Source of the DNA: a virus
Length of the DNA: 22,031 nucleotides
Reading direction: 5' to 3' (one strand)
IMG/VR virus record: IMGVR_UViG_3300010354_000769
Coordinates: 1-22,031 of that record
Position numbers and translations under genes: made by a program. Shown piece after piece: positions 15,582 to 20,760 of the stretch (position 1 is the stretch's first letter; the number at the start of each line of letters is the position of its first letter). Under the pieces are notes generated by a model that was given only the letters and a program-made list of their open reading frames with translations, did not search any database and was not told the origin of the DNA.

Positions 15582-16745
15582 CTAGCTCCACTCTAGCACT
15601 CTGGCCCCACTGCCCCAGGCATAGGTCATAGCGTCCACTAGGTCATCGTGCTCGCCCAGGGGAAAAGCCAGCAGCTCCTGCTGAAAATAATCAGGCAGGG
15701 CAGGGTCTAGCATGATCATCCCTTGCTCTAGCCTTGCCTCTACTGGCTGAAAGCGCGTCACTTTGTCTCTGTCTGGCCTGACGCCCTTTACAGGCAGATC
15801 AGTAGTGCGCAGCAGCTCTGACACCACTGCTGCCTGATACTGCACCTGCTCCACACTGATAGCCTGTGGGCCATGCTTGGCAGCCATTGCACGGATGAAC
15901 GCTAGCACATCCTGAAAGCCAGCCCTGACCCTAGCTGCATCCCTGACCCACGTTCTGCCGTCGGCATGCTTGGCCAGCACCACAGCAGCTGTGTAGTCTG
16001 CCCCGTCCTTTGTGCTGATGGCCAGGTCGACGCCCATCAGGATTCGGCTGCGCTCCAGCTCTGCCTCAGTGGGCCTGCCAGTCCTGAGCCACTCTCGCCT
16101 GACTCTGGTGCCACTGCTGGCCACAAACTCAGCCCCAAACTCCTGCCGGAACACGATGCTAGGCAGCTCTGCTCTGGCTGCCTCTACTTCAGCTGCATCT
16201 AAGTGTGGGTTAGTCCAGCTCGGCAGCTGCCAGCTCTGCCAGCCATTACTGCCACTCTGCTGCCACGCCCTGTGGAACCAATCGCCGTCGCCAGCTGGTG
16301 TGCTAATGAAAATCCCCTTGCCTCTGCGGTCAGCCAGTGCTGGCCTGATGGCCTGCTGCCACACAGCCTCGGGGCAATATGCAGCCTCGTCAAAGATCGC
16401 CAGGTCTAGTCCCTCGCCACGCAGCCCGCTGTCTCCACTATCTGCAGACTTAAACCAGACCTCGCCGCCCATCAGGGGCAGCTGCACCATTCTGTCGCCG
16501 TCCCTGATCCTGACGTCTGGCACATCCTGTACCAGCTGCTTAAGCTGCCTGAAGCCGATCCCGCTGGTGGCATAGGTGGGGGCCAGCCACCACACACGCT
16601 GGCCACGCATGGCAGCAGTCAGGGCAGCAATGCCAGCTAGCCTGGTCTTACCCCACCGCCTGCCACAGGCTAGGACCTTCCACCTGGCAGGATGCTCGTA
16701 TATCTCTCTCTGCAGCTGGTGCAGCTTAGGCAGAGTGATTATCAC
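15582..16745 (-). CDS. terL: Terminase large subunit (387 aa)
   Basis: The start is GTG at 16745, preceded by AGGAAA; the start overlaps the glycosyltransferase end by 20 bases. The ATPase half shows Walker A ACGRRWGKT (26-34), Walker B DLAIFDEAA (114-122) and the coupling motif ISTP (147-150). The nuclease half shows the RNase-H-like acidic residues: Asp240 in MGVDLAIS, Glu299 in ISVEQ, and the Asp cluster in EHDDLVDAM (about 365-372). This is the full two-domain DNA-packaging motor, though at 387 residues it is on the short side for the family. It cuts concatemeric DNA and pumps it through the portal. The portal gene follows about 45 bases downstream. The paired small subunit is two genes upstream, with a ParB-like gene and a glycosyltransferase in between. 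Confidence 0.95.
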   Translation of the reverse strand: MIITLPKLHQLQREIYEHPARWKVLACGRRWGKTRLAGIAALTAAMRGQRVWWLAPTYATSGIGFRQLKQLVQDVPDVRIRDGDRMVQLPLMGGEVWFKSADSGDSGLRGEGLDLAIFDEAAYCPEAVWQQAIRPALADRRGKGIFISTPAGDGDWFHRAWQQSGSNGWQSWQLPSWTNPHLDAAEVEAARAELPSIVFRQEFGAEFVASSGTRVRREWLRTGRPTEAELERSRILMGVDLAISTKDGADYTAAVVLAKHADGRTWVRDAARVRAGFQDVLAFIRAMAAKHGPQAISVEQVQYQAAVVSELLRTTDLPVKGVRPDRDKVTRFQPVEARLEQGMIMLDPALPDYFQQELLAFPLGEHDDLVDAMTYAWGSGARVLEWS

Positions 16746-17601
16746 GGGCTGCTTTCCTGCACCACTCTGGCAGGATCAGTGGGGCACAGTTAGGCCAGCT
16801 GATCCTGTGGTGCAGTCTCCTGTGGGCATCGCCCATCTCGGCCACCACAGTGCAGCTTGGCTCGTACATGACTGTGTAAAAGCTTTTCTGATAGGTGCCA
16901 CTCTCCAGATACATATCAGTCAGGCCGCCACTGTTGGCCTGTGTCTGCTTTTGCTGCACAGATAGCATGGGGACAGTCAGGAACAGTGCCCCACGCCTAG
17001 TGTGTGTCACATAGGTGGTCACGTCATCGTTCATTCTGCTGACAAACTGAAATTGCCGCTCAGTGTCACAAAAAAAGCTGTTCATCGCTTTTCTCAGTGG
17101 CCTAGTGCTGGCAGCAATGCCAGCTCGCTTGCCACCTATATAGTCGCCATTCTGTGCCATCGCTATGCTGGCTGCAGGTATGGACTTGTAATAGTCCAGC
17201 ATGATGTCAAACACTGCCTCGATGTCTTTGATCTTTTTTTCCACATAGTTTAGCTGGTGGTCTGTTTTCCACAGCAGCTGCTGATAGTCATCGTCCAGCT
17301 GCACAAAGTATCTGAAGCCCTGCTGTCTAGCCAGGTCGAAACACGCATTGCGGGCATAGGTCACAGTGGCCCTGCTTGGCCTATTGTCGCCCATGTCAAA
17401 CTGCTGCCACAGCTGCTGCTTGCTGAAGGTCAGCACCTTGCCTAGATACTTGCGCTGATAGTCAGCTAGTGTGGGGTCCTCGTCGTCTACCACCAGAAAC
17501 AGTGGCCCAGTGTAGCCAGCACGCTTCAGAGTGTTATAGGTGGTCACTCTGTCGGGTCGTTTGTGGGTCAGGATAAACACGCAAAAGTCAGTGTTACGCA
17601 T
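16726..17601 (-). CDS. TET-associated-type DNA glycosyltransferase (about 291 aa)
   Basis: A GT-A-like fold is suggested by FCVFILTHKRPDRV at the N-terminus, a strand ending FLVVDDEDP, and YFVQLDDDYQ with a DDD triad (109-111 counting from the ATG at 17619), the usual metal and nucleotide-sugar site. VTYARNACFDLARQQGFRY, SRMNDDVTTYV, RRGALFLTVPML and HHRISWPNCAPLILPEWCRK complete a pattern that I recognise from memory as the TET-associated glycosyltransferase (TAGT) family. In phages this family adds sugars to 5-hydroxymethylcytosine made by TET/JBP dioxygenases. ATG at 17601 (Met7) fits the family's usual start; ATG 17619 (AGG seven bases upstream) is the alternative. No dioxygenase or C5-methyltransferase is in the window, so the substrate is inferred. 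The gene overlaps its ParB-like neighbour and TerL. Confidence 0.78.
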   Translation of the reverse strand: MRNTDFCVFILTHKRPDRVTTYNTLKRAGYTGPLFLVVDDEDPTLADYQRKYLGKVLTFSKQQLWQQFDMGDNRPSRATVTYARNACFDLARQQGFRYFVQLDDDYQQLLWKTDHQLNYVEKKIKDIEAVFDIMLDYYKSIPAASIAMAQNGDYIGGKRAGIAASTRPLRKAMNSFFCDTERQFQFVSRMNDDVTTYVTHTRRGALFLTVPMLSVQQKQTQANSGGLTDMYLESGTYQKSFYTVMYEPSCTVVAEMGDAHRRLHHRISWPNCAPLILPEWCRKAARDNHSA

Positions 17602-18439
17602 CCTGACTCTCTGCCCCATACTCAGCCTGATACTGGGCTAGCACTTGCTCTGTCAGCTTCACATAGCCCCGCTCGATGGCCTGATCAAAGTCAATAATGA
17701 CCAGGGCACTGGACTCCATTAGCCCCTGCACTGTCTCGTCGCTGTGGGCATAGTACTCAGCCACTTTCCTAAAGTGCAGCACAGTGTGCCTGTGTGCAGC
17801 CACTCTCAGGAACGCCTTTACGTCCTCTGGCAGCTCTGCTGCGTCTATCTCTGCCAGCAGCTGCCTGGTGCGGGTATCGTCATACAGCTCTGACAGGGCT
17901 GGCATGGGGCCAGTGGGCACATACACCGGGCTTTCTACTTTTCGCGTGTAGACCTCGTCTGGCTCTGTGCCAAGCAGCTGCCCCAGCTCTGTGGCACTGA
18001 AGCCCAGAAGCTCTACAGCAAAGTCGTCGGCCAGCAGCTGCTGTACCTCGCTGGCCAATAGGTCCTCGTCCCAGCCAGCATCTAGGGCCAGTCTGTTATC
18101 AGCTATCACGTAGGCACGCATCTGCGCCTCGTCCAGGTGGCTAACGTCTATGGTGGGCACTTGCTCTAGTTTCAGCTGCCTAGCCGCCTCTAGCCGCCCG
18201 TGACCCGCCACTACCGTGCCGTCGGCCATTACCAGTATCGGCACTGTCCAGCCAAACTCTCTGATGGCTGCAGCCAGCTTGGCTATCTGGGCAGGGCTGT
18301 GTGTCCTGCTATTGCGGGCATACGGCAGCAGGTCTGCCACTGGGGTCATACTGATGCCTTCGGGCATCCTGACCTGCTGGCTTTCCTGCTTGCCACTGCT
18401 GGCCTTTTTATCTGGCTTCACTGCTGGTCCTCGGCCCAT
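17594..18439 (-). CDS. ParB/Srx-fold protein with conserved C-terminal domain (281 aa)
   Basis: The start is ATG at 18439, overlapping the small-terminase end by 22 bases. Residues 30-130 are a ParB N-terminal (ParB/Srx) domain: PVADLLPYARNSRTHSPAQI, the signature DGTVVAGHGRLEAAR (73-87), then VIADNRLALDAGWDED. This fold binds or cuts DNA, or acts as a nucleotide-dependent switch, in many phage proteins. Residues about 165-275 form a second domain (SPVYVPTGPMP, AAHRHTVLHFRKVAEYYAHS, ESSALVIIDFDQAIERGYVK). From memory this domain accompanies phage ParB proteins next to TET-associated glycosyltransferases. It is not a DNA methylase: there is no SAM or catalytic motif. The role is probably in DNA modification or in coupling modification to packaging. 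Confidence 0.82.
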   Translation of the reverse strand: MGRGPAVKPDKKASSGKQESQQVRMPEGISMTPVADLLPYARNSRTHSPAQIAKLAAAIREFGWTVPILVMADGTVVAGHGRLEAARQLKLEQVPTIDVSHLDEAQMRAYVIADNRLALDAGWDEDLLASEVQQLLADDFAVELLGFSATELGQLLGTEPDEVYTRKVESPVYVPTGPMPALSELYDDTRTRQLLAEIDAAELPEDVKAFLRVAAHRHTVLHFRKVAEYYAHSDETVQGLMESSALVIIDFDQAIERGYVKLTEQVLAQYQAEYGAESQDA

Positions 18440-18765
18440 CGGATCACAATCTCCTGCCTGTCTGCACCTTCAGGCCGCCTGTCCTGCCTGCCAAAGCGGT
18501 CGGGATACTTGCGCTCCAGATACCAGGCACTGGCCTGCCAGACTCCATCTCGGCTGGCCTTCATAATCTGGGCCATGTGAAAGCTGATGGCTTCAGCTTC
18601 CGCCTTTTCCACTGCTTCAGAAAATGCAGGGTCAGCTTTCAGCCACTTATAAAAAGTGTCATGACTGATGCCAGCTGCAGTGTAGGCATGGTCCCTATAG
18701 TTACCCAGCTTCAGCAGGGTAATGATGCGCTCGGCAGTCTCTGGTGTGCGCTTACTTTTGGCCAT
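18418..18765 (-). CDS. terS: Terminase small subunit-like DNA-binding protein (115 aa)
   Basis: ATG at 18765 is preferred to the GTG at 18774, which has little room for a ribosome site. A GGGTGG stretch lies about five bases before the ATG. Residues 10-45 form a helix-turn-helix (ERIITLLKLGNYRDHAYTAA, then GISHDTFYKWLK) of the kind that recognises the packaging site. The middle helix (FSEAVEKAEAEAISFHMAQI) would mediate oligomerisation, and WQASAWYLERKYPDRFGRQ is a motif often seen in phage small terminases and related HTH proteins. It overlaps RusA upstream and the ParB-like gene downstream. The family name is supported by the downstream large terminase. Confidence 0.85.
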   Translation of the reverse strand: MAKSKRTPETAERIITLLKLGNYRDHAYTAAGISHDTFYKWLKADPAFSEAVEKAEAEAISFHMAQIMKASRDGVWQASAWYLERKYPDRFGRQDRRPEGADRQEIVIRWAEDQQ

Positions 18766-19126
18766 TGCTACCACCCACAGGCTCGACCACCACCACCAGC
18801 CCTGCTGGCTGCTCTGCTGATGGCTTCAGCCAGGCACAGCTGCAGCTGTGGACCTGCCTGTCGTCTTTCCATACTTGGCCATTGCCAGCATCTAGCACTG
18901 CGCCTAGCAGGTTATCCAAGTCGCCTCGTGGCTTTTTGTCAGCCACTATCAGCACCTGCACAGCCACGGGCACGTCCAGCAGCTGGTGGCCCCTGTACGC
19001 CAGCATTAGCTGCACTCTTGTCTCGTTCAGCCAGTCCTGATAGCCAGGGGGCATATAGGTGCCCCTGCTGGTCACTCGTGGCCTGGCCTTAGGCACTGCA
19101 TGCCAGCCAGTCAGCTCCAGTCTCAC
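18752..19126 (-). CDS. rusA: RusA-family Holliday junction resolvase (124 aa)
   Basis: The start is GTG at 19126, with AGGAAGG about nine bases upstream. The sequence has the RusA layout: VPKARPRVTSRGTYMPPGYQ near the N-terminus (DNA-binding basic loop), KKPRGDLDNLLGAVLDA (64-80) with the conserved acidic pair Asp69 and Asp71, and QVWKDDRQV (84-92) with Asp88/Asp89. These acidic residues coordinate Mg2+ for paired nicking of four-way junctions. Length agrees with E. coli RusA (about 120). In phages it resolves branched replication intermediates before packaging, which fits the position just upstream of the terminase block. Confidence 0.92.
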   Translation of the reverse strand: MRLELTGWHAVPKARPRVTSRGTYMPPGYQDWLNETRVQLMLAYRGHQLLDVPVAVQVLIVADKKPRGDLDNLLGAVLDAGNGQVWKDDRQVHSCSCAWLKPSAEQPAGLVVVVEPVGGSNGQK

Positions 19127-19909: not shown

Positions 19910-20186
19910 GGCGGCTCGCCTTTTTCTGGTCGTTGAAACAGTGCTTGCAGGTGGCCATATAGCCACTGGGCCTAGTGTTGCACCTGTAGTACTGGCTCCA
20001 GTCCTGCCATATAAAGCAGCGGCTGCACTCTCTGCCATGGGCATCCTTAGCAGTGCCTGGCCTGACTGCCTGCTGTGGTGCGCTTAGTCTCTCAGCAGTA
20101 GCTGCACAGGTCTGGCAGCGGTGCTGCTGGTCAAGATAGCCAAACAGTCTGGCACACACAGAGCAGCACGACAGCCTACGGCTCAT
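19896..20186 (-). CDS. Zinc-binding protein with endonuclease VII-type ribbon (96 aa)
   Basis: The start is ATG at 20186, overlapping the methyltransferase end by 11 bases. Two four-cysteine clusters occur: Cys8/11 with Cys24/27, and Cys54/57 with Cys80/83. The second (ECSRCFIWQDWSQYYRCN, then GYMATCKHCFNDQKK) matches the pattern C-x2-C, W/F-x-x-F/Y-Y, x-x-x-G-x-x-x-x-C-x2-C found before phage recombination endonuclease VII and HNH domains. No Asp/Asn/His catalytic block follows, so it may be a stand-alone DNA- or RNA-binding ribbon, or a remnant of a nuclease. Its neighbours are a DNA methyltransferase and, further on, RusA. Confidence 0.75.
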   Translation of the reverse strand: MSRRLSCCSVCARLFGYLDQQHRCQTCAATAERLSAPQQAVRPGTAKDAHGRECSRCFIWQDWSQYYRCNTRPSGYMATCKHCFNDQKKASRHAGL

Positions 20187-20760
20187 GACGCTTCACCCAG
20201 CCAGCCTGCCTGACCACCCATGCACCAGCTCTGGCAGCTTCAGCCTGCAGCTTATTAGCTGCCCTTGCTGTCCTGTGCCTGTGTATCACTAGTGCGCTGG
20301 GGAACGGTGCAGCACCACAGCTGCTGCCATCAGGACCCTGCAGAAACTTGACCCGGCCCTGCAGAAAGATCACAGAGCTGCTGGCTGCCACCAGCACCCG
20401 CCACCACCTCGTATCAGTCCTAGCAGGCACTAGGGTCACGATGCAGTGTGCCAGCTTGGCACTGGCCATAGCCAAGTGCTGCCTGTCCACAGCTGCTGCC
20501 CAGCTTGGCAGGGCTGTGCCGTATGGCGGATTAACATACACCAGCTCCTGTGGGCTGACAAACTGGCTCCAGTCAGCCTGCAGGCCATCGTCTAACTCTG
20601 TCAGGCTGTGCCTGGCTGCCACTAGGCTGGTGGCATTGCTGCACGGGTCTAGAGCCACACCAGCTGGCCAGCCTGCATGCAGCAGGCTGATCAGCTCTGG
20701 TGGTGTATTCCACGTGTCGGCAGCACTGCTGACCATTGCTGGCAAGTGCAGCCTAGCCAT
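20176..20760 (-). CDS. Phage DNA N6-adenine methyltransferase (194 aa)
   Basis: The start is ATG at 20760 in a TAATG overlap with the upstream gene. WNTP (17-20), LDPCSNATS (37-45) and VYVNPPYGTALPSW (74-87) give the usual order of this family: a substrate motif, an Asp-Pro-Cys SAM-binding loop, and the N-P-P-Y catalytic motif. LVPARTDTRWW (110-120), FLQGRVKF and APFPSALVI are further signatures of the phage DNA N-6-adenine methyltransferase family. It would methylate adenine in phage DNA to resist host restriction or alter replication and packaging. The basic C-terminus (GWVKRHEP) is normal. Its target cannot be read from the sequence. Confidence 0.9.
   Translation of the reverse strand: MARLHLPAMVSSAADTWNTPPELISLLHAGWPAGVALDPCSNATSLVAARHSLTELDDGLQADWSQFVSPQELVYVNPPYGTALPSWAAAVDRQHLAMASAKLAHCIVTLVPARTDTRWWRVLVAASSSVIFLQGRVKFLQGPDGSSCGAAPFPSALVIHRHRTARAANKLQAEAARAGAWVVRQAGWVKRHEP

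Follow-up and report, generated by a model that had tools for sequence, protein, structure and literature searches.

Glycosyltransferases of the TET-associated family (TAGT, PF20691) occur in several phage settings, and proteins with a ParB-type domain recur next to these and other enzymes that act on DNA bases. The TAGT of phage T6, Ggt, acts on phage DNA, at glucosylated hydroxymethylcytosine (HMC) made at the nucleotide level and without TET, according to PMC13216743, so that membership in the family does not by itself imply a TET dioxygenase. The same paper counts solitary TAGTs, present without an alpha- or beta-glucosyltransferase (alpha-GT, beta-GT) in 288 of 753 phages, flags them as possible novel transferases, and leaves TAGTs that lack a recognised partner glucosyltransferase unexplained so far. 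In DpdB-DpdA, the gene for a ParB-superfamily protein directly precedes that for an enzyme which modifies DNA bases, and in mycobacteriophage CRB2 the partner enzyme is DpdA-like (PMC6392294); about 28% of the G positions in Rosebush DNA carry preQ0 (PMC6884629). Here we describe a TAGT gene and its ParB-bearing partner gene in IMGVR_UViG_3300010354_000769, a virus record of 22,031 bases that was analysed in its entirety (the window), together with their relatives in other viruses. Together the two proteins probably form a glycosylation cassette that works independently of TET and is brought to DNA by an exchangeable ParB domain.

Genes for the small terminase subunit (TerS), the ParB-type partner, the glycosyltransferase and the large terminase subunit (TerL) follow one another in the window, all on the minus strand, with ends overlapping by 22, 26 and 20 nucleotides. 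An earlier, sequence-only reading of this DNA had placed overlapping GT-A-like and ParB-fold proteins between TerS and TerL, as the open reading frames, Pfam and PHROGs also do, and each motif it had quoted for the glycosyltransferase is found in that frame. Its assignment to the TAGT family and the GT-A type is confirmed: against PF20691 the protein scores 114.1 bits, far above the curated Pfam cut-off of 27.5, and its predicted structure is a confident GT-A fold (Table 1) whose closest structures are GalNAc-T2, GnT-I and POMGNT1 (Z about 13-14); a PDB sequence search with it gave no match. There are two candidate starts, at 17619 and 17601, the second of which (an ATG, and the earlier choice) is the better conserved. 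Across 32 sequences, D110 and D111 of the DDD motif are invariant and D109 is kept in at least 90%, while N197 and D199 are invariant as well. Ggt of T6 belongs to the same family (PF20691 1e-8), and it can be aligned with this TAGT at the DDD, (E/D)D and GG motifs, but it requires HMC made from deoxycytidine monophosphate plus an alpha-GT, and neither a ParB nor a C-terminal-domain partner is annotated beside it; the profile that we built for the present TAGT branch does not detect Ggt, whereas Pfam PF20691 does. The name "beta-glucosyl-HMC-alpha-glucosyltransferase" sits, in phrog_842 and in RefSeq phage entries, on TAGTs of phages with no detected HMC pathway, and we caution against copying it to such phages.

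The partner protein is built of two domains with different histories. ParB_N matches its N-terminal part with 24.7 bits at the protein level, below the cut-off of 26.3, and with 27.1 bits, above it, on DNA, and structures of ParB, KorB and Noc align at Z 12-14 with root-mean-square deviations of 1.5-3.2. A role in partition was considered for this ParB-type protein and dropped, since the full-length ParB model TIGR00180 reaches 29 bits against a cut-off of 58 and no ParA-type match was seen among the window proteins scanned. The helical C-terminal domain has invariant R217, Y230 and D250, and in a PDB structure search with the whole partner model the rows that cover it have Z of 2.5 or less. 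Used alone as a query, it matches 28 of 50,697 phage records, all 28 of them among the 34 records of the TAGT branch (see below); in the remaining six the copies are rearranged or diverged. In 18 loci it is freestanding, as a protein of 131-153 residues that still adjoins the TAGT, and in one locus (L061:7015-9522) its gene and the TAGT gene are duplicated in tandem as a unit, with a radical-SAM/SPASM gene after them. Because the scanned loci overlap and many are related, so that their counts are not independent, distances were compared over 110 non-redundant loci, where distances for the C-terminal domain correlate with those for the glycosyltransferase at r 0.62 and distances for the ParB domain at r 0.24; bootstrapping puts the 95% interval for this difference at 0.25-0.47. 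Among the same loci, 65 pairs combine similar TAGTs (at least 58% identical) with dissimilar ParB domains, and no pair with TAGTs of that similarity has dissimilar C-terminal domains. From this co-variation and these exchanges, we take the C-terminal domain to be the TAGT's own partner and the ParB domain to be the exchangeable part.

A tblastn search with the TAGT returned 34 phage records, with hosts that include Escherichia, Salmonella, Vibrio, Lactobacillus, Nocardia, Porphyromonas and the archaeon Haloarcula; the branch so defined leaves out T6-type TAGTs, and all pairing statistics refer to this branch only. Scans of viral and bacterial contigs added at least about 200 further loci, and the viral scans yielded at least 600 candidate stretches, of which nearly all were relatives. 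Hundreds of viruses of bacteria and archaea carry the pair. Where both genes are present (215 loci), the partner always lies upstream of the TAGT on the same strand; about 20 of these loci have an inserted gene, and in the others the two genes abut or share a few bases; most annotated records show the overlapping or abutting pair followed by a terminase gene. Of the 177 ParB-bearing loci whose flank is long enough, 166 have TerL no more than 3 kb downstream; the same is true of none of the 10 loci whose partner has no ParB domain, several of which sit among replication and recombination genes (primase, helicase, clamp, NinB-like). The ParB-addressed version, then, is found with terminase genes and the unaddressed one elsewhere, including replication modules. 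In relatives, the pair usually comes immediately before TerS, and the median distance to TerL is 489 bases; TerL is within 100 bases of the pair in 9 of the 166, which makes the exact slot between TerS and TerL seen in the window a minority arrangement. That lack of conservation counts against a packaging checkpoint, which the sequence-only reading had suggested on the basis of position alone, and the idea was dropped because, in addition, the ParB-less versions lie away from terminase. The cassette also appears to be lost at times. In Lactobacillus phage LL-Ku (L021:90-938), an internal deletion has fused the ParB start, in frame, with the central part of the TAGT, and in Lactobacillus phage Ld17 (L019:75-833) the TAGT is damaged internally and at its C-terminus.

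That ParB-type partners recur beside TET and TAGT genes, as the sequence-only reading stated, holds in mycobacteriophages Acadian and Baee, where the order is ParB protein, TET, TAGT and deacetylase. There, as here, the ParB protein is upstream in the same operon, and the locus lies at the genome end that holds terminase genes in the relative Nigel; unlike here, a TET is present, the TAGT has 244 residues and belongs to a separate branch (E 0.05-0.09 with the profile of this branch), and the ParB protein is without the TAGT-specific C-terminal domain. Gene 1 of Nigel encodes a ParB protein and gene 2 a TET/JBP dioxygenase, and in all 18 Nigel-type TET loci a ParB domain precedes TET, with the TAGT-specific C-terminal domain in none of the 18. 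Nigel gene 2 (L219:776-1744), which is followed by TerS, was deposited as a queuine tRNA-ribosyltransferase, probably a misannotation; its sole Pfam match is Tet_JBP (4e-6). Another locus (L238:5050-8822) has two ParB-type genes, with nuclease-like and kinase-like frames, recognised by eye, between them and the second directly before a TET/JBP gene. The DpdB-DpdA arrangement, with the ParB-type gene directly upstream, recurs here in nearly all of the 215 loci, for an enzyme whose substrate is a matter of inference, but DpdA is a transglycosylase that swaps the base by 7-deazaguanine insertion and not a GT-A sugar transferase. Homologues of the ParB domain occur in 420 phage records, many of them annotated as DNA methyltransferases; the phrog_498 proteins have a homologous ParB domain at the N-terminus (1.9e-49) and differ in carrying a methyltransferase in place of the TAGT, fused and not encoded by a separate gene. 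An association of the ParB domain with DNA base modification is well supported as a common theme.

Acadian and Baee, where TAGT, TET and ParB protein co-occur, lend some weight to the route proposed in the sequence-only reading, in which the TAGT would glucosylate 5-hydroxymethylcytosine (5hmC) made by a phage TET/JBP enzyme from 5-methylcytosine. Since the window is the whole of the record and a fragment of the genome, both enzymes would have to be encoded in its unseen part, and their absence was judged from relatives. Tet_JBP (PF12851) had no match in 65 records whose TAGT belongs to this branch (the phage collection supplied 13 of these), although the positive control, mycobacteriophage Nigel, was detected; a C5-cytosine methyltransferase was found in 2 of the 65, and in 10 of 14 control genomes. 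Thymidylate-synthase family proteins (PF00303) were absent from the ParB-bearing records and turned up in Vibrio phage pv27, whose partner has no ParB domain, and in the T6 control only. Small relatives are without TET, C5-methyltransferase and thymidylate-synthase-type genes, and the complete gene listing of phage c5 (31.8 kb) contains no obvious hydroxylase and leaves no candidate. With the TET-linked TAGTs forming a separate, shorter branch that lacks the C-terminal partner domain, the TET/5hmC pathway is unsupported for the present branch, and we regard it as highly improbable for this phage. What stands of the earlier proposal is that the phage may glycosylate its own DNA, still the best reading; the dioxygenase and methyltransferase that it expected elsewhere in the genome find no support in the relatives. 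The acceptor, on the best reading, would not be 5hmC from a phage TET and would be either an unmodified base or something that every host supplies.

An all-against-all comparison of six viruses (c5, phi jlb1, 613R10, NTR1, the first 50 kb of HHTV-2, and the window), whose known hosts fall in four phyla, found only the partner and TAGT families common to all. It would reveal a third component as conserved as the pair, though a fast-evolving one could escape. The pair therefore looks self-sufficient. This bears on the suggestion that an unrecognised phage enzyme, or the partner itself, makes a hydroxyl-bearing base that the TAGT then caps. Glycosyltransferase chemistry normally uses a hydroxyl, the invariant R217, Y230 and D250 of the partner's C-terminal domain could be read in that sense, and a radical-SAM gene lies directly downstream of the pair in some relatives (a cluster of six represented by L207, plus L061). 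However, only a small fraction of loci have such a gene, the C-terminal domain is short, helical and without a Pfam match, and the six carriers have yielded no third gene family in common, so that we hold a hydroxylating step of this kind to be improbable.

Further genes in or directly after the pair fit a sugar-type transferase with a donor that differs between phages. In 12 loci a glycerol-3-phosphate-type cytidylyltransferase is joined to a histidine phosphatase, and in two it stands alone; UDP-galactopyranose mutase occurs in two loci, a sugar epimerase/dehydratase in two, a small-molecule-type methyltransferase in four and a second TAGT in at least five. None of these genes, nor the radical-SAM gene, is present in the window, and a host nucleotide sugar is therefore the likely donor there.

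The cassette may be pictured as follows. The TAGT would take a sugar from a nucleotide-sugar donor, presumably host-made in this phage, while the partner's helical C-terminal domain would hold the TAGT and its ParB/sulfiredoxin-type domain would bring it to chosen sites on DNA, as related ParB domains seem to do for DpdA, TET dioxygenases and DNA methyltransferases next to them. Made together with the terminase genes in a late operon, the pair may add sugars to progeny DNA around when it is packaged, and these would then shield that DNA from nucleases. In a more specific version, to be held tentatively, an unmodified DNA base is itself the direct acceptor, the exchangeable ParB domain sets the sites, and the donors vary between phages (hexose, galactofuranose or glycerol-type).

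Several points weigh against DNA as the acceptor. A canonical base offers no known hydroxyl for O-glycosylation, so that either the linkage would have to be new or a hydroxylating step would have to have gone unrecognised; the remaining genes of this phage lie outside the fragment; the top structural neighbours of the TAGT model are protein and glycan glycosyltransferases, though similar at the level of the fold only; GREB1, a eukaryotic TAGT-type protein, has been reported to glycosylate protein (Shin 2021, as cited in PMC12645433); and papers on virion-DNA modification in phi jlb1, c5, NTR1 and HHTV-2 were not found, nor is the HHTV-2 pair discussed in PMC8651126. GREB1, the folds of GalNAc-T2, GnT-I and POMGNT1, and the want of a universal hydroxylated base in these phages would all suit a non-DNA target such as a virion or host protein, a tRNA or an envelope glycan. 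Against such a target, the ParB domain recurs in the partners of DNA base-modifying enzymes of three kinds (PMC6392294 among the sources), the T6 and TET-linked TAGTs are members of DNA-modification pathways, and the six carriers share no third phage protein that could serve as common substrate. We accordingly judge a non-DNA target unlikely and retain the DNA-directed cassette as the preferred reading.

Either the glycosylation of DNA bases here needs no prior hydroxylation, or the pair modifies something unexpected. If the first is true, a kind of DNA hypermodification without that step would already be spread across viruses of bacteria and archaea and be present in prophages of about one sixth of E. 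coli strains. The problem of the solitary TAGTs is in any case narrowed to one branch with a dedicated partner domain, swappable donor genes and no other shared phage gene needed; the part of PMC13216743 consulted names, for its solitary TAGTs, neither a ParB partner nor the C-terminal domain, the terminase linkage or the donor genes.

In E. coli, the pair resides in the Rac-type prophage; 1,542 of 5,426 complete genomes match the pair, and 903 (17% of the 5,426) hold at least 80% of it. Both genes are open in strain ATCC 8739 (262 and 310 residues), and some copies of the TAGT are named GREB1-related by PGAP. In the Rac prophage of K-12, YnaK (L240:5378-5641) is the truncated remnant of the partner, its first 87 residues, and the TAGT gene is gone. 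The ATCC 8739 prophage also encodes a DNA cytosine methyltransferase beside an ATP-dependent nuclease (L241:10092-12985), which looks like a defence or restriction pair and not part of a TAGT pathway.

Table 1. Features of the terminase locus in the window (positions of the 22,031-base record)
Feature	Position	Strand	Remarks
TerL (large terminase subunit)	15582..16745	-	PF17289 1.7e-12, PF03237 7.6e-9; phrog_2 1.2e-42; overlaps glycosyltransferase gene
TAGT-family GT-A glycosyltransferase	16726..17619	-	PF20691 1.1e-32; phrog_842 1.1e-66; model pLDDT 89.4, pTM 0.88
N-(E/D)-D motif, residues 197-199, candidate catalytic region	17023..17031	-	Aligned with CED (T6) and GED (TET-linked TAGT)
DDD metal/nucleotide-sugar motif, D109-D111	17287..17295	-	Aligned with DDD of T6 Ggt and TET-linked TAGTs
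Partner protein: ParB/Srx N-terminal domain and TAGT-specific C-terminal domain	17594..18439	-	phrog_620 4.7e-59; ParB_N 27.1 bits; model pLDDT 84.9
Helical C-terminal domain, conserved, residues 163-281	17597..17953	-	Dedicated TAGT partner; no Pfam match
ParB/sulfiredoxin-fold domain, exchangeable, residues about 29-160	17960..18355	-	KorB/ParB/Noc structures Z 12-14; presumed DNA-addressing or NTP-binding part
TerS (small terminase subunit)	18418..18774	-	Pfam PF20901 1.5e-7; phrog_4102 5.9e-25; overlaps ParB gene

The window further contains portal/MuF, protease, capsid, connector and tail genes, and the phage is an ordinary tailed phage. Upstream of the terminase genes, at 20176-20760 on the minus strand, lies a gene for a Dam-type N6-adenine methyltransferase (PF05869 4e-17), a separate modification gene.

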